Part shown: piece by piece, positions 1-19,383 of the stretch
Numbering within the stretch: the stretch's first letter is position 1
How the letters are laid out: each line of letters begins with the position of its first letter
Source: a virus
IMG/VR virus record: IMGVR_UViG_3300007511_001192
Coordinates: 1 to 21,604 of that record
Reading direction: 5' to 3' (one strand)
Length of the DNA stretch: 21,604 nucleotides
Translations under genes and position numbers: made by a program
Notes under the pieces: generated by a model
The model's database searches: none
What the model saw: only the letters and a program-made list of their open reading frames with translations
Told to the model about the DNA's origin: nothing

Positions 1-329
1 TGAGCGAGTTTTTTGATTATGACCCTCTGACGGGTGTGAAGTCGTTCTTCGACTACGACGAGCTGTCGGGGGTGGCGACGATCCGCGAGGAGCAGAACAT
101 CCAGCCGTTCGTTGACTACGCGACGAAGGTCCGCAACTCCGGGCTGACCGACAAGGGCATCAAGGAGGACTGGTGGAAGTACTGCATCATCCCGACGGTT
201 GTCCAGCTCGAGCTGTTGAATAAGGGTATTAACATCCTGGACCCAGACCCGGACGTTCTGAAGCGGGCGTTCAAGGAGATCAATGAGAACTACCCACACT
301 TGAAATTGACGGAGAAGCATCACCAATGA
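1..329 (+). CDS. Small phage protein with duplicated FFDYD motif (5' end cut by one base)
   Basis: The frame is open from the left edge and reads S-E-F-F-D-Y-D-P-L-T-G-V from base 3. Bases 1-2 are TG, so one missing A would give an ATG at position 0. The full product is then about 109 aa. An internal GTG at 36 would also open the frame but would cut off the first copy of a repeat: FFDYD-PLTGV is followed 13 residues later by FFDYD-ELSGV. The rest is acidic and soluble, with no signal peptide. From memory, small proteins with this N-terminus occur among head/connector genes of tailed phages, but I know no function. Its TGA overlaps the ATG of the next gene by 4 nt, so it belongs to the virion operon. 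Confidence 0.75.
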   Translation, partial: SEFFDYDPLTGVKSFFDYDELSGVATIREEQNIQPFVDYATKVRNSGLTDKGIKEDWWKYCIIPTVVQLELLNKGINILDPDPDVLKRAFKEINENYPHLKLTEKHHQ

Positions 330-1795
330 GCAGAGCGGAAGAGCGAAAGAGGGACCTGGTGATAGCCAGGCACCTGGCCGACGCCGGCGAGCTGGACCAG
401 GCTTACACGGTTGCGGACAAATGGCTAAACCTGGATCCGAACGATGGGCCGTTCCTGACGGTGCTTACGTCCATAATGATTCAGTCGGAAAAAAGACCGA
501 TCGCGTACGCACTATCCAAGAAGCTGACTCAGCTTATGCCGAACAATGCTGCGTCCTGGATCAACATGGGACAAGTCTCGGCTGACCTGTGGATGGTGAC
601 GGAGGCGAAGAGGTGCTACAGGAAGGCCGCGGAGCTCGCCGAGAGTCCCAGGCAGAAGTCGATGATCTTGATCAATATGGCGGCAATGCTGATCGATTTG
701 GGCGAGTGGGCCGAGGCTGAAGAGTACGCGCTTAAGGCGCAGCAGCTCCGCGAGAATGAGCTGTTCGAGGAGGACCGGCACCGTGACGAGAATGACAACA
801 AGGCGCTCGCTAATCTTTCGTTTTGCCAACTGGCTCGGCGACAGTGGAAGGAGGGATGGAAGAACTACCGGAAAACACTCGGACACGATCAGTGGCGACC
901 CAGGAACCAGTACGCCGAGGAGCCGGAGTGGAACGGCGGCAAGACCAGGCAGCTCGTTCTGTACGGCGAACAGGGCCTGGGCGACCAGATCACGTTCGCG
1001 AGCATGCTTCCTGATTGCCAGGAGCTTGCGGATGAGGTCATCTTCCACTGTAACACCGAGCTCCAGCCGCTCATGGAAAGGTCATTCCCTGACGTCACCG
1101 TCTACGGCGCCCTCGGGTCCGACGAGCTGAACTGGGAGCCTGAGCACCAGGAGCCGACGGCGTCCCTGGCTGTCGGGCAGGCTGCTCAGTACGTTCGCCG
1201 GCATGATGTGGACTTTCCGGGTACGCCCTTCTTGACGCCCGACCCGGACAGGATGGCGATGTGGAAGGCGCTCTTCGAGACCAAGAAGAAGCCTGTCATC
1301 GGTATCACCTGGCAGGGGGGTATCCCCAGGACCGGGGCGAAGTTCCGACAGATGGCGCTGGAGGACCTTGAGCCGGTCTTCGACGCGGTCGACGCGCACT
1401 GGGTGATCTGTCACTACAAGGACACGAAACACGAGGTTCGGGCGTTCAAAGATAAGCGCCCGGACATTGATATTGGCGAGTACCCGTGGGCCACATTGTC
1501 TCGGGACCTCGACAACTCTGCTGCGCTGATCGCGTCATGCGACATGGTGCTGACAATGCAGCAAACAGCGGGCCACATTGCTGGTGCCGTTGGTGCCCCG
1601 GTGTGGGTATTTGTAACGAAGAACTCACAGTGGCGGTACGGCCTGGAAGAGTATGAGGACATGCCTTGGTACAACTGCATGCGCCTTATTCGACAGAGGG
1701 TACGCGGCTCCTGGAAGAGCGAGATAGAACAGGTATCAGGAGAGATAGGTGCTTATATCGAAGGAATACGCAGCGGAACAGCAGAAGCTGCATGA
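326..1795 (+). CDS. TPR-repeat glycosyltransferase (GT9-like C-terminal domain)
   Basis: This 489-aa protein has two parts. Residues about 10-185 are helical TPR-like units (for example ASWINMGQVSADLWMVTEA and the pair around MLIDLGEWAEAEEYALKA). Residues about 205-470 resemble the glycosyltransferase domain of TPR-GT9 proteins. Supporting motifs are GEQGLGDQITFASMLP, the strand VIGITWQGG, the CDMVLT...AGHIAGAVGAPVWV segment that usually binds the nucleotide sugar, and a W-R-Y...PWYNCMRLIRQ ending typical of the family. No membrane segment is seen, so it should be cytoplasmic. TPR domains fused to glycosyltransferases often recruit protein acceptors, as in O-GlcNAc transferase, so glycosylation of a virion or host protein is plausible; that is inference. 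It starts by ATGA overlap with the preceding gene and heads a three-gene sugar cassette. Confidence 0.85.
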   Translation: MSRAEERKRDLVIARHLADAGELDQAYTVADKWLNLDPNDGPFLTVLTSIMIQSEKRPIAYALSKKLTQLMPNNAASWINMGQVSADLWMVTEAKRCYRKAAELAESPRQKSMILINMAAMLIDLGEWAEAEEYALKAQQLRENELFEEDRHRDENDNKALANLSFCQLARRQWKEGWKNYRKTLGHDQWRPRNQYAEEPEWNGGKTRQLVLYGEQGLGDQITFASMLPDCQELADEVIFHCNTELQPLMERSFPDVTVYGALGSDELNWEPEHQEPTASLAVGQAAQYVRRHDVDFPGTPFLTPDPDRMAMWKALFETKKKPVIGITWQGGIPRTGAKFRQMALEDLEPVFDAVDAHWVICHYKDTKHEVRAFKDKRPDIDIGEYPWATLSRDLDNSAALIASCDMVLTMQQTAGHIAGAVGAPVWVFVTKNSQWRYGLEEYEDMPWYNCMRLIRQRVRGSWKSEIEQVSGEIGAYIEGIRSGTAEAA

Positions 1796-2992: not shown

Positions 2993-3618
2993 TCACGGAC
3001 TACGACAGCTTGGACGCAGCCGTCGACGGCTACCTGCACCGGACGGACCTGAGTTCCTGGGTGCCAAATTTTATCCAGAACTGCCAGTCGAAATTGTATA
3101 GGAAGTATATGATTCGCGACATGGAGAAGGCCCTGTCGGTCTCGGTCTCGGGCGGCACTGGCGCTGTCCCGTCGGACTACAGGGCGATGAAGTTCTGCTA
3201 TGCCGACGGTAGCCCGACGACACCGTTGCGGTTTGTTAGCCTGGAGGAGCTCTTCGACGAGTACCCCCAGCGCGACGAGCAGGGCACCCCGAACCTAGTC
3301 TCCAGGGAGGTTGGCAATTTCGTCTTCGGTCCCGGCAACCCGGCGGACTTCAGTATGAAGGGCGTCTACTACTACACGTACACGCTCCTGAGCTCCGGTG
3401 GCAAGACGACCAACTGGTACACGGATGAGGCGCCCGAGGTTCTGCTCTACGGATCACTCCTGGAGGCTGCGCCCTTCATTGGCGATGACGAGCGGATGCC
3501 CTTGTGGCAGGGTCTGTACCTTGAGGCATGCCAACTGGCAGAGCTCGAGGTTAAGCGCGAATACCTGTCGGGAGGAACGAAGCGGGTCCGCACACAGGCA
3601 GCAGGGAGTCGTGCCTGA
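2983..3618 (+). CDS. Head-tail adaptor protein (SU10-adaptor type)
   Basis: The 211-aa protein opens MAIITDYDSLDAAVDGYLHR, followed by WVPNFIQNCQSKLYRKYMIRDMEKAL, and then PSDYRAMKFCYADGSPTTPL. This order is typical of podovirus adaptor proteins of the SU10/P22-gp4 sort, which form a ring under the portal and connect it to the tail. The C-terminal helix (MPLWQGLYLEACQLAELEVKRE) also fits that family. The frame is open back to 2914, but the ATG at 2983 gives the conserved N-terminus; its Shine-Dalgarno is weak, so it is probably coupled to the glycosyltransferase upstream, which it overlaps by 10 nt. The portal and capsid genes expected before it must lie left of the window. Confidence 0.75.
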   Translation: MAIITDYDSLDAAVDGYLHRTDLSSWVPNFIQNCQSKLYRKYMIRDMEKALSVSVSGGTGAVPSDYRAMKFCYADGSPTTPLRFVSLEELFDEYPQRDEQGTPNLVSREVGNFVFGPGNPADFSMKGVYYYTYTLLSSGGKTTNWYTDEAPEVLLYGSLLEAAPFIGDDERMPLWQGLYLEACQLAELEVKREYLSGGTKRVRTQAAGSRA

Positions 3619-5039
3619 TGCCGCGCACATCAATAGTGCAGCGGAAGCAGCGGGTCAGGATTGACTTTTTGGCCTGGAACCCCGACCAGGATGCGTTTAA
3701 TAACCCAGGCCTGACGGTTGCCACAAACACCATCCACCAGCCTGGAGGGTATAAGCAACTTAAAAGCCAAGCGACGGTCGGCTCAAAACCTGTCGGCACG
3801 GCAACTATTCTCGCGCCCAGGTACATTCCGTTCCCCGGTAATGACGACGACCTGACGGAGTCAATCTACGTCGGGGTCAATGCCACCTCTGGAGGACACA
3901 GGATTTACGCCAGCGCCAACGGTGGAACGAGCTGGACCAAGAAGTACACCGGAAGTGGATCGGTCTCCTGGGTTGACTACGCGCAGTACGACGACCATGT
4001 GGTGGCGGCGTTCGGCGGTTCAAGCGCGAATAACGCCGTAAACACCGACAACGGAAGCCTGACGTCGATCGGGTTCTCGTCTGACCTCCTGGGGGTGATC
4101 GGTGACTTCGTTATAGCCGGCAGGCCGTCGGGCTATGGAGACGAGGGGGCGCATGCCGTCAGGTGGTGCAATATTGGCGACCCTACGACCTGGGCCACGC
4201 CGGGGACTGACGCGGCCAGGGCGGCCCAGGCTGGGATTGAGTTCCTCGACCCGGTGTACGGCACCGTAACGGGTATCGCTGGGGGCCAGTTCTTTGGTTA
4301 CATCCTGCAGCAGCGCGGCATAGTCAGGGTGACATATGTAGGCGGTGACGGGGTATTTCGATTTCAATACGTGTCCCGAGGAATCGGCTGCTACTCGGTT
4401 AACAACTTCTGCCAGGTCGAGGACCTGGTGTTCTTTGAGTCAGCGAGCGGTTACTACATGCTCCAGGGTGGCGCGGTTGTCGATATCGGCAAGGGCGTTG
4501 TAGCGGAAAGCTACCCACCTGAGGATCACGAGGCGCCAAACAGCTACATCGGATCGGTCCACGCGAACCCGGCGATAAACTGTGTGTTTTGGACGGCGGG
4601 TCTAATCTACAACTACAAGTCCGGCTACTGGACGATCGGCGACGACATTAGTCCTCGGTACTCAATAAACAACGACGCGGGCGTTATCGGCGAGCTCACC
4701 TCTAACGGGAAGCTGTCGCTCCGCACGGGTTCGGCAAAGCAGGCCACGTTCACAACCCAGGAGACTGACCCAAACCCAGCGGGGCGGGCCTTGGTCACGG
4801 GCATACGGCCAATCATCAACAACCCGTCGACCTTGACGAACGTCGTCGTCAGGGTCGGCTCAAATGATCAGTACAACAACTCTCACACGTTTAGCCCTTC
4901 CTCGACGGTAAATAACACTACGTTCAAGGCGGACGTTCTGTGGGAGGGGCGAAACCTAAGGGCGGAGGTTAAGGTTAGTGGAGGATTCACAAGGGCACTC
5001 GGACTCGACGTCGAGTTCATCCCCCAGGGCATTAGGTAG
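3618..5039 (+). CDS. Virion structural protein, tail hub/nozzle candidate
   Basis: This 473-aa protein is dominated by short beta strands and turns rich in Gly, Ser, Asn and Thr. It has repeated units that look like propeller blades (for example HRIYASANGGTSW, DLVFFESASGYYMLQGG and YKSGYWTIGDD). There is no signal peptide or transmembrane helix. Its position just after the adaptor gene and its size match the beta-propeller nozzle or packaged-DNA stabilisation proteins of short-tailed phages (P22 gp10 or the SU10 nozzle); that placement is inference from synteny and composition. The ATG overlaps the adaptor stop as TGATG, with AGGGAG upstream. A part of a tail tube or a general virion protein is the alternative. 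Confidence 0.65.
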   Translation: MPRTSIVQRKQRVRIDFLAWNPDQDAFNNPGLTVATNTIHQPGGYKQLKSQATVGSKPVGTATILAPRYIPFPGNDDDLTESIYVGVNATSGGHRIYASANGGTSWTKKYTGSGSVSWVDYAQYDDHVVAAFGGSSANNAVNTDNGSLTSIGFSSDLLGVIGDFVIAGRPSGYGDEGAHAVRWCNIGDPTTWATPGTDAARAAQAGIEFLDPVYGTVTGIAGGQFFGYILQQRGIVRVTYVGGDGVFRFQYVSRGIGCYSVNNFCQVEDLVFFESASGYYMLQGGAVVDIGKGVVAESYPPEDHEAPNSYIGSVHANPAINCVFWTAGLIYNYKSGYWTIGDDISPRYSINNDAGVIGELTSNGKLSLRTGSAKQATFTTQETDPNPAGRALVTGIRPIINNPSTLTNVVVRVGSNDQYNNSHTFSPSSTVNNTTFKADVLWEGRNLRAEVKVSGGFTRALGLDVEFIPQGIR

Positions 5040-15480: not shown

Positions 15481-15762
15481 GCAGAATCTGCTTATGTCGT
15501 GCTTGACTATGCCCCTCAGGTTGTAGTCCTCAATTGTAAACTGGCAGTCTGGATCGTTCCGACAGTCCTCCAGGGCCCAGAATAGTTGCTTTGCGTTGTA
15601 GCATTTATCGGGCGCGTCCTGCTCGTCGAGCAGCGTGTCAATTATCGGCAAGGACACCATTAGTGCCGCCGCGACCAGAAGAAGAAACGCCATAAACTCC
15701 GTCAGCGTCTGGCCTTTCTCGGCTCTCCTGGCGCGATAAAATTGAAAAACATTTTCAGTCAT
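15460..15762 (-). CDS. Type IVb prepilin/TadE-like small protein
   Basis: From ATG 15762 (AAGGAG six bases upstream) the product is 100 aa. After a short basic leader (FYRARRAEKG) comes G17-Q18-T-L-T-E22-F, then a hydrophobic helix MAFLLLVAAALMVSLPII. A Gly before the cut, Glu at mature position 5 and a long hydrophobic helix are the hallmarks of type IV prepilin-peptidase substrates; the G-Q-x-L-x-E-F form is closest to Flp/TadE pilins. The mature part has four cysteines (about 54, 67, 73, 94). It is the last gene of the leftward operon, 60 nt after the methyltransferase. What a phage would do with it is unknown; interference with host pili is possible. A chance single-pass protein is the alternative. 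Confidence 0.65.
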   Translation of the reverse strand: MTENVFQFYRARRAEKGQTLTEFMAFLLLVAAALMVSLPIIDTLLDEQDAPDKCYNAKQLFWALEDCRNDPDCQFTIEDYNLRGIVKHDISRFCLVPVLD

Positions 15763-15822
15763 AATCTTCTCCTTTATGCACCGCATCAATGCGCTGCCCA
15801 ATCCATTTTTTCGCGTTGTCGG

Positions 15823-16608
15823 TCATTTCGACCTTGCACTCAGCACCCGCCAGGCTTTTGCTGCGGTTTGCGGCACGACTCCGTTCCCCAAGAGCCTAAG
15901 TCGGTCAGCCCGATTTTCACACCCATCAACCACTCGCAAAATTCCGGGTTCAGTTGCCCAGTACATTTCTCCCTGCCACCCTCCCTGTTTATCACTACCG
16001 TTGTAAGCGATTCTTGCGTTCCTTTTTTGTTCGTGTCGCGTCTCTGGTATCCCAGCCGTGCCTCGTGGGCTGACGGCGTCGGCCATAATAAACACCCGTT
16101 TTCTTTCGTGCGGCGCACCGACTTCTGCCGCGCTAAATATTCCCCATTCTGTGCGATAACCATCTTCCTCCAAGTCGGATATGACTGTCGACAGTCCAAG
16201 CGAAATGTGGCCGAAGACGTTTTCGAAGAAAACGCGAAAAGGTCTGACTGCTTGAATGATGTCCCTGATGTAAGGCCAGAGGTGCCTGGGATCATCTTTT
16301 CCTGCTCGCTTTCCGGCAGAGGAAAATGGCTGGCAGGGATATCCCCCAGTGATAACGCTAACTCTGTCTCGAAAGCATTCCACTGGGAGGGTTTTAAGAT
16401 CCGTCCAAACAGGTGCGGGAGCCAACTGAGCCGTTTCCATCTTCGCAACCAGGTTGGCAATGGCGAAGGCTTCGATCTCCACATGAGTGATGACTCGATG
16501 TCTAAACCCAGCAAGCTCAAGTCCTCTCTCGATACCCCCATATCCTGTGCAAAGACTGAGTACAGTGGGTAGTTGTTTGGGATTATCCACATCAGATTTC
16601 CCCAACAT
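15823..16608 (-). CDS. C5 cytosine DNA methyltransferase (Dcm family)
   Basis: The 261-aa enzyme shows the motifs in order: I (VLSLCTGYGGIERGLELAG), IV with the catalytic Cys92 (GGYPCQPFSSAG), VI (FFENV), VIII (HERKRVFI) and X (LLGNGVVPQTAAKAW). The target recognition region between VIII and X is only about 55 residues, which is short but usual for small phage orphan enzymes. It adds a methyl group to carbon 5 of cytosine, probably to hide phage DNA from host restriction; no partner endonuclease is seen. ATG 16608 has no good Shine-Dalgarno, whereas GTG 16590 in the same frame has GGGGA at a good distance and would still give motif I. The gene lies in the leftward operon. Confidence 0.93.
   Translation of the reverse strand: MLGKSDVDNPKQLPTVLSLCTGYGGIERGLELAGFRHRVITHVEIEAFAIANLVAKMETAQLAPAPVWTDLKTLPVECFRDRVSVITGGYPCQPFSSAGKRAGKDDPRHLWPYIRDIIQAVRPFRVFFENVFGHISLGLSTVISDLEEDGYRTEWGIFSAAEVGAPHERKRVFIMADAVSPRGTAGIPETRHEQKRNARIAYNGSDKQGGWQGEMYWATEPGILRVVDGCENRADRLRLLGNGVVPQTAAKAWRVLSARSK
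15840..16592 (-). CDS. Possible overprinted ORF inside the methyltransferase gene
   Basis: This 250-codon ORF lies wholly inside the methyltransferase gene on the same strand, in another frame. It starts with ATG 16592, which has GGGGA six bases upstream and overlaps the stop of a nine-codon leader. Segments such as SSLMWRSKPSPLPTWLRRW, SYPTWRKMVIAQNGEYL, LLWPTPSAHEARLG and GQLNPEFCEWLMG (followed by GLTDL) resemble, from memory, free-standing phage and prophage proteins annotated near C5 methyltransferases. Conserved codons of the methyltransferase read one base off would by themselves yield part of this; motif X upstream RVVDG...RADRLRLLGN lies over EWLMG...GLTDLGSWGT. It may be a true overprinted gene or a conserved artefact. 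Confidence 0.35.
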   Translation of the reverse strand: MWIIPNNYPLYSVFAQDMGVSREDLSLLGLDIESSLMWRSKPSPLPTWLRRWKRLSWLPHLFGRILKPSQWNAFETELALSLGDIPASHFPLPESEQEKMIPGTSGLTSGTSFKQSDLFAFSSKTSSATFRLDCRQSYPTWRKMVIAQNGEYLARQKSVRRTKENGCLLWPTPSAHEARLGYQRRDTNKKGTQESLTTVVINREGGREKCTGQLNPEFCEWLMGVKIGLTDLGSWGTESCRKPQQKPGGC

Positions 16609-18271: not shown

Positions 18272-19228
18272 TCAATATGCAACGCACTCTTCGCACACAG
18301 TACCGCTCAAGTCTTTCTTTAGGTGCGCCTCGCGAATCCCCGTGAATTGTTCGTTATTCCAAATCTCCATCCAGTCATCATCATGAAGATTGCCAACCTG
18401 AAATCTCCCGTCTGCGTCAAAGCAGCACAGGGACACAATCCCGTCAGCGCGGACATGACCCTCAGTAAAAGCCGACCAGCAAGGCAAGGGGCTGACCAGG
18501 CCGCCTATTCGCCCCTGGTTTCCAGCGGTCGGCCTATACCCCAACTCCGCCTCTCGCTCGGTTGCTACCGATCCCATCGAATACAGCGGTAGCCAGTAGT
18601 GTTCATCAACAAAAGGCTCAACTCGCTCCTTGACAAGAGTCTCCATTCTCTCTTGCTGCTCTCCGTCATACTTGATTGATGACGCATATATCCTGGTCTT
18701 GTACTTGCACCTGTCTCGTATCTCACTCGTTCGCTTGAGATTAACAAGCGCTTGCTCATAGAGCTTCGCCTTAACCCCCATCACCTCTTCAAATTGCTCA
18801 TCATCAGAGGCGTTAATTGAAAACTTGAGCGAATCCAGCCCCGCATTCATCAGGGCATGAATAACCCTCTCACCGCACAAAGAGCCATTCGTGGTCAGAA
18901 AGACATAGGGCATGGCCAAATCCCACTTCAGCCACTGAACCGCCTGAACGGCTAACTCGGGGGCCATGAGGCTCTCACCCAAGTAAAAAATACCTATTTC
19001 CTCAACACCCGCCTCATGCATTTGAGCGGTTATCTTCTTGAAGAAATCAATACCCATGTCCTCTGAAACCTTGGGCTGCTCATCTCGCATCCTCAAAGCA
19101 CAGAAACCACACCGATAATTGCACCGCCCAGTCAATTCAATTTTGACCGACTTCGGGCAGGGGGGTTTAGCAGTTAAATATTCCGCAGGTATATGCGTAA
19201 TATTGTCGATCTTGTCCGTAATAGTCAC
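18272..19228 (-). CDS. Radical SAM enzyme with SPASM-like C-terminus
   Basis: From GTG 19228 (AGGAGAGG six bases upstream) the product is 318 aa. C36-N-Y-R-C40-G-F-C43 is the C-x3-C-x2-C cluster site that binds the iron-sulfur cluster used to cleave SAM. The following YLGESLMAP segment fits the GGE-like SAM-binding motif. The C-terminal part has LPCWSAFTEGHVRADGIVSLCC and ends C-E-E-C, matching a SPASM/twitch region that binds a second cluster. Such enzymes modify peptides, sugars or other small molecules; the substrate is unknown. The frame is open to 19282, but that start has no ribosome site. A phage gene of this class is unusual but recorded in marine viruses as I recall. Confidence 0.85.
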   Translation of the reverse strand: MTITDKIDNITHIPAEYLTAKPPCPKSVKIELTGRCNYRCGFCALRMRDEQPKVSEDMGIDFFKKITAQMHEAGVEEIGIFYLGESLMAPELAVQAVQWLKWDLAMPYVFLTTNGSLCGERVIHALMNAGLDSLKFSINASDDEQFEEVMGVKAKLYEQALVNLKRTSEIRDRCKYKTRIYASSIKYDGEQQERMETLVKERVEPFVDEHYWLPLYSMGSVATEREAELGYRPTAGNQGRIGGLVSPLPCWSAFTEGHVRADGIVSLCCFDADGRFQVGNLHDDDWMEIWNNEQFTGIREAHLKKDLSGTVCEECVAY

Positions 19229-19383
19229 TCTAGCCCTCTCCTTGTGACGGCTCACAAAAAACACACCGGCTAATTCAACCAATGCATCACAATAAAGTCG
19301 GGGACCAGCCTGGGGAGGGGACAGGCCGCTCTTCCGAGTAAAGTCCCCTATGCCCTAAGGCAATTCCATCCTTGGAAATAATG

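Follow-up and report, generated by a model that had tools for sequence, protein, structure and literature searches.

A phage C5-cytosine DNA methyltransferase probably built from two polypeptides encoded in overlapping reading frames

C5-cytosine DNA methyltransferases are generally single-chain enzymes. In M.EcoHK31I, the small subunit is reportedly encoded within the large-subunit gene in a different reading frame. The large subunit of this enzyme (YGGCCR; Lee, Kam & Shaw 1995) carries motifs I-VIII and X together with the predicted recognition domain, while the small subunit supplies only motif IX (PMC3404938). M.AquI (CYCGRG) is also split, with motifs I-VIII on one polypeptide and motif IX on another (PMC3404938). 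We describe here a phage locus at which two polypeptides of this kind, alpha and beta, appear to be encoded by the same DNA; a search of the literature on overlapping phage genes found nothing on it.

The locus lies in a viral record 21,604 bases long, called the window below. Both frames are on the minus strand (Table 1). Beta is a real open reading frame of 250 aa beginning with ATG, and it lies in +1 relative to a C5-cytosine methyltransferase frame that stretches from 15823 to 16608. An earlier sequence-only reading had reported this ORF on the methyltransferase strand, with an ATG of its own and a GGGGA, and both were confirmed; the GGGGA sits 6 nt before the beta ATG. Alpha would be 261 aa long if begun at the in-frame ATG at 16608, upstream of the conserved GTG. 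No restriction enzyme was recognized beside the locus among the ORFs scanned. Elsewhere in this phage genome, the window encodes a SPASM-domain radical SAM protein (18272-19282, minus strand; PF04055, E 2.8e-13; PF13186, E 6.9e-12) and a 489-aa protein with tetratricopeptide repeats (326-1795, plus strand; PF07719, E 1.7e-8). Antisense to the methyltransferase gene runs a plus-strand ORF of 276 codons (15742-16572) with a match to phrog_38519 (E 2.4e-11). We rejected it as coding, as its openness is what chance would give (P = 0.21) and there was no excess across 147 loci; phrog_38519 may itself be an antisense misannotation.

Table 1. Features of the alpha/beta locus in the window
Feature	Position	Strand	Details and evidence
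Alpha, C5-cytosine methyltransferase frame	15823..16590	-	255 aa from conserved GTG; motifs I-VIII and X, motif IX not recognizable
Beta, second ORF, proposed second subunit	15840..16592	-	Codon shuffles, regional silent-site constraint, phrog_1008 E 2.3e-21
Double start, ATGTG	16588..16592	-	Beta ATG 16590-16592, alpha GTG 16588-16590, 2 nt apart; start-region alignment
Shine-Dalgarno (SD)-like GGGGA, upstream of double start	16599..16603	-	Sequence
Alpha motif IV with catalytic Cys, GGYPCQPFS	16321..16347	-	Aligned to M.HaeIII and M.HhaI
Alpha motif VIII, GAPHERKRVFIM	16084..16119	-	Past here the coding signal moves to the +1 frame
Alpha motif X, RADRLRLLGNGVVPQTAAKAW	15850..15912	-	Aligns to columns 370-394 of canonical motif X; stand-alone score very low
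Beta motif IX-like segment, QLNPEFCEWLMGVKIGLTDL	15897..15956	-	+1 frame; aligns to columns 348-365 of canonical motif IX (E 0.0017, probability 15.6%)
Beta core segment over motifs VI-VIII, SSATFRLDCRQSYPTWRKMVIAQNGEYLARQKS	16119..16217	-	Last third constrained in all groups
Beta WPTP segment, LLWPTPSAHEARLGYQRR	16038..16091	-	Alignments A1, A2; opens region of variable length among relatives
Beta N-terminal conserved segment, SLMWRSKPSPLPTWLRRWKR	16431..16490	-	Window group only; first third of I-VIII constrained

The methyltransferase motifs are divided between the two frames. Alpha matches PF00145 (E 1.4e-30) only as far as residue 196, and its matches to solved structures in the PDB stop at residues 175-178, the end of motif VIII. 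Its C-terminal end, RADRLRLLGNGVVPQ, is motif X-like; in a profile alignment it falls on the columns of motif X, not IX, with a very low stand-alone score, and an HMM of related alphas detects motif X in split and fused genes (described below). In beta, the segment LNPxxxEWLMG aligns, with a weak stand-alone match, on canonical motif IX. The corresponding match for the beta of another group is weaker still (probability 2.3%), while the C-terminus of the fused proteins aligns on canonical motifs IX-X with E 1.7e-5 (E 1.7e-7 when the set still held family members). These placements indicate that the motifs follow one another along the DNA as they do in ordinary C5 methyltransferases, except that motif IX is read in the second frame. 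As judged from sequence comparison, then, the division of motifs is established: alpha has no recognizable motif IX, beta has an IX-like segment in the right place, and split and fused forms of the same parts exist.

The match of beta to phrog_1008, annotated as 'DNA methyltransferase', covers positions 36-155 and 256-279 of that profile, and positions 286-320 are matched instead by the alpha frame of the window; the profile fits a split-type second gene, in which beta is joined to motif X. Searches of Pfam, NCBIfam and the PDB with beta found no relatives, and six matches to glycolipid transfer protein (E 0.16-0.23) were judged to be chance. Modeled alone with AlphaFold2, beta folds poorly (mean pLDDT 54).

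Relatives of the locus occur in three layouts, which we call coextensive, split or partly overlapping, and fused. In the coextensive layout, found in the window, in most viral loci and in the bacterial and archaeal loci examined, alpha carries motifs I-VIII and X and beta lies in the +1 frame over most or all of it; of the 80 bacterial and archaeal loci, a few are broken by indels, and in some beta is limited to the downstream portion of the gene. Altogether, in nearly every one of about 280 loci from viruses, bacteria and archaea, the beta sequence is found in +1 relative to a methyltransferase frame, and motifs picked out by the sequence-only reading, LLWPTPSAHE and LNPEFCEWLMG, recur widely. 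The split layout is found mostly in actinophages, where the two genes of a pair overlap and the second closes with the methyltransferase motif X. In Catdawg, gp6 holds motifs I-VIII (176.7 bits), and gp5, overlapping it by about 208 nt, matches the beta profile (100.9 bits) and then continues into motif X in the same ORF; further such pairs are Zaka gp91/gp90, Juno112 gp41/gp42 and Sebastisaurus gp34/gp35. In the fused layout, represented by 36 loci (prophiT46-2 gp23 and 35 others), motifs I-VIII, the C-terminal part of beta, with motifs LLPTPxA... and NPRLAAAFSEWMMGWPxGW, and motif X follow one another in one frame. A model of a fused protein superposed on M.HhaI with Z 22.3 and rmsd 3.2 over 244 residues, an alignment given by its end points alone.

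The layout is common to hundreds of phages and prophages, and annotations nearly always give one protein of the two. Named phage records differ as to which frame is the gene: in several (Vibrio phage 1.291 AUS01725.1, SOVA965 WWO60469.1, Rctr197k APU88996.1, Shamal WWQ72029.1) it is the beta frame that is annotated, with the methyltransferase left unannotated. A prophage region of E. coli PT62 has two nearby C5 methyltransferase genes (L413:42-1028 and 3000-3737), the second of which is of the overlapping type with its alpha frame alone annotated. In other relatives the stretch from motif VIII to motif X has been lengthened by repeats whose beta-frame reading is WPTPTAxD and whose alpha-frame reading is LADADSxR (L070:2102-3328, L091:2484-3875, L291:170-1708), and its length ranges from about 50 to more than 250 codons; the repeat units are possibly recognition modules.

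These layouts bear on what beta does. Beta could be an independent nested gene with another function, such as anti-restriction or regulation, and not a subunit at all; the lack of any relative in Pfam, NCBIfam or the PDB would fit such a gene, as would the separate constraint on its N-terminal third in the window's group. Against this, the C-terminus of beta falls on motif IX, which is what alpha lacks, beta carries motif X in the split pairs, and its C-terminus lies within the methyltransferase chain in the fused genes. We consider an independent function unlikely.

The start region is conserved as a unit. In the window it reads GGGGAAATCTGATGTGG, and a second in-frame start of the methyltransferase, the GTG at 16590, overlaps the beta ATG; the conserved element is this double start. 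Among 95 non-redundant loci with both starts, the two frames begin 2, 4 or 5 nt apart in 79 (offsets of -2 in 50, +4 in 16 and -5 in 13), with double starts of the form ATGTGG (beta ATG, methyltransferase GTG), ATGACATGG or ATGAATGAG, and an SD-like sequence precedes the double start in 69. Where the beta ATG is altered, it has become GTG or TTG (L053, L042) and is still a start codon. In 24 further loci, no beta-frame start was found near the usual place.

Position 3 of the methyltransferase codons is position 2 in the +1 frame, so selection on beta should hold the silent sites of the methyltransferase. For loci at 80-90% identity, 4-fold sites over the whole gene differ by 0.15, versus 0.44 in the flanking genes of the same loci, a figure that pools regions and overstates the constraint over motifs I-VIII; regional figures are therefore preferred. 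In the window's group at 80-90% identity, differences over the successive thirds of I-VIII are 0.25, 0.45 and 0.29, with the middle third unconstrained when set against the 0.44 of flanking genes. The excess synonymous constraint that the sequence-only reading had proposed looking for is thus present relative to flanking genes and, over I-VIII, regional. Canonical enzymes give 0.59-0.63, with no dip by region. Because sequence pairs are mutually non-independent, all of these constraint figures are effect sizes and not P-values. A mixed set of coextensive loci shows little silent-site constraint over I-VIII, and in one group (L117-L196) it is confined to the last third, with little in the first two thirds, where some beta-frame stops also occur. 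This suggests that the core of beta starts near the TWPxxG segment seen in other groups, the counterpart of SSATFRLDCRQSYPTWRKMVIAQNGEYLARQKS in the window, and that the N-terminal module of the window's group was either gained there or lost elsewhere.

Beyond motif VIII the coding signal changes frame. The interval between motifs VIII and X in alpha is only about 57 residues, and the +1 frame is the better conserved of the two there. Between the window and the related locus L008, +1 identity over this region is 0.77, whereas the methyltransferase frame is 39% identical, and differences fall at 0.19/0.12/0.47 on +1 codon positions 1/2/3. L053 and L057 have the same frame switch, with codon periodicity shifting to +1 in the interval from motif VIII to motif X. 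More broadly, conservation of the +1 translation above a codon-randomized null shows a larger excess than that of the +2 translation in every identity bin. Taken together, the beta frame is almost certainly protein-coding and under protein-coding selection, as far as sequence evidence can tell.

The fused genes add a complication. In fused actinophage genes at 70-80% identity, 4-fold differences drop to 0.27 in the last third of I-VIII, compared with 0.52-0.59 in the other thirds, and in fused genes L287, L290 and L293-L322 the +1 reading over motifs VI-VIII matches the beta profile at 63-68 bits. Both observations suggest that the +1 segment may be translated even there, perhaps giving a short peptide of its own, or through frameshifting. 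The constrained last third also makes the fused genes unfit as a clean negative control, and canonical C5 enzymes were used instead. One could suppose that a single chain is made by a programmed slip out of the methyltransferase frame and into +1 around motif VIII, which is where the coding signal shifts and where the fused genes retain their constrained +1 segment. Such a chain would, however, require a second slip to reach the window-type motif X, which is again in the first frame, and beta has a conserved start of its own and a first third under constraint. We regard frameshifting as quite improbable for the window.

The openness of the +1 frame was compared with chance by permuting synonymous codons of the methyltransferase within its gene, which keeps both protein and codon usage. 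In the window 258 codons are open in +1, whereas shuffled genes have a median of 93 (P < 0.001); the +2 frame is ordinary in the same test (P = 0.34). Across related loci, +1 openness reached P <= 0.01 in 179 of 201, compared with 3 of 201 for the +2 control; 80 of the 201 had been chosen by methyltransferase similarity alone, so the openness is not a search artefact. Over motifs I-VIII, the 58 non-redundant loci of the window's group, the close relatives in which stops were to be looked for, have no +1 stop at all (58/58), where 2.78 per locus would be expected. Canonical C5 methyltransferases (n=42) contain 8.07 +1 stops, close to the 8.27 expected, and are not depleted. An untranslated shadow, kept open and similar by the constrained codons of the methyltransferase, is strongly contradicted and hardly credible: nearly every beta-frame match does overlie a methyltransferase frame, and the first two thirds of I-VIII in the L117-L196 group do have little silent-site constraint and some stops, but shuffled codons yield many stops for the same protein and codon usage, canonical enzymes are undepleted in +1 stops, the +1 frame has the better conservation and its own third-position signal over VIII-X, and split and fused proteins contain the beta sequence in frame, as a normal segment. 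Beta is thus probably translated, as the sequence-only reading had supposed; codon shuffles, silent-site constraint and the frame switch all speak for it, and the canonical-enzyme control is negative.

We therefore favor, as the probable explanation, a two-polypeptide C5-cytosine DNA methyltransferase in overlapping frames, similar to M.EcoHK31I, with beta as its second subunit. Ribosomes would initiate at ATGTG in either frame of one mRNA. The GTG frame would give alpha, which would bind AdoMet and attack the cytosine with its catalytic Cys (motifs I-VIII and X), and the ATG frame would give beta, with its N-terminal extension, the core over VI-VIII, the WPTP segment and motif IX. Beta would complete the DNA-binding side, contributing motif IX and, by its position, target recognition, in the role of the small DNA-recognizing domain of ordinary enzymes. 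The two chains would come together as a single active methyltransferase acting on phage DNA, probably to protect it against host restriction. Set against the subunit model are the weak stand-alone match of beta to motif IX, the poor fold of beta by itself, the placement of the predicted recognition domain of M.EcoHK31I in its large subunit and not the small one (PMC3404938), and the silent-site constraint over VI-VIII in the fused genes, which simple fusion does not explain. An extended version is possible, and we hold it tentatively at best: the N-terminal third of beta would be a newly overprinted domain with its own function, the +1 segment of the fused genes would be expressed by programmed frameshifting or as a third small polypeptide, and the gene would have been re-cut repeatedly among the layouts.

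The history proposed in the sequence-only reading fares less well. It had likened beta to a free-standing phage family that, if the likeness held, may have arisen by overprinting and later separated, with this phage in an ancestral nested state. Lone annotated copies turned out to overlie an unannotated methyltransferase or to be split or fused forms; scans of viral contigs, genome contigs, phages and plasmids found no free-standing homologue, and none of the roughly 280 loci or of 87 actinophage-type loci has a beta copy that neither overlaps nor completes a C5 methyltransferase. Three loci (L253, L262, L275) that appeared to hold separate copies are in fact indel-broken. The part of beta over motifs I-VIII may still be called overprinted. 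The C-terminal part of beta corresponds to the enzyme's own motif IX region and so is not a de novo product, and with a single chain the general state of these enzymes, the ancestral nested scenario is unsupported.

If the subunit model is right, hundreds of phage and prophage annotations reading 'DNA cytosine methyltransferase' describe half an enzyme, and the annotated protein, expressed by itself, would falsely seem inactive. The loci would also be a source of many natural split methyltransferases, a kind of enzyme used in targeted methylation. The overlap is extensive, at about 250 codons here and as many as about 460 in relatives, and it is widespread; since natural split, overlapping and fused versions can be compared, direct tests of how overlapping genes arise and persist would become possible.

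Compared with canonical single-chain enzymes (M.HhaI, M.HaeIII, Dcm type), the window has the counterparts of motifs I-VIII and X in alpha and of IX in beta; unlike it, those enzymes are one chain with no second coding frame. The actinophage pairs, Catdawg gp6/gp5 among them, share the division of M.AquI, with motifs IX and X on the second polypeptide, whereas the window has motif X on alpha and genes that overlap over their full length. The locus resembles M.EcoHK31I: alpha lacks a recognizable motif IX, the IX-like segment is on beta, and beta is nested in the +1 frame, a similar motif split with a weak motif IX match in the window (E 0.0017). We tentatively assign the recognition part to beta because the VIII-X region of alpha is short, while that of M.EcoHK31I is placed in the large subunit. 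The window differs further in being phage-borne, in having a beta nearly coextensive with alpha from starts 2-5 nt apart, and, in its group, in the conserved N-terminal extension of beta.
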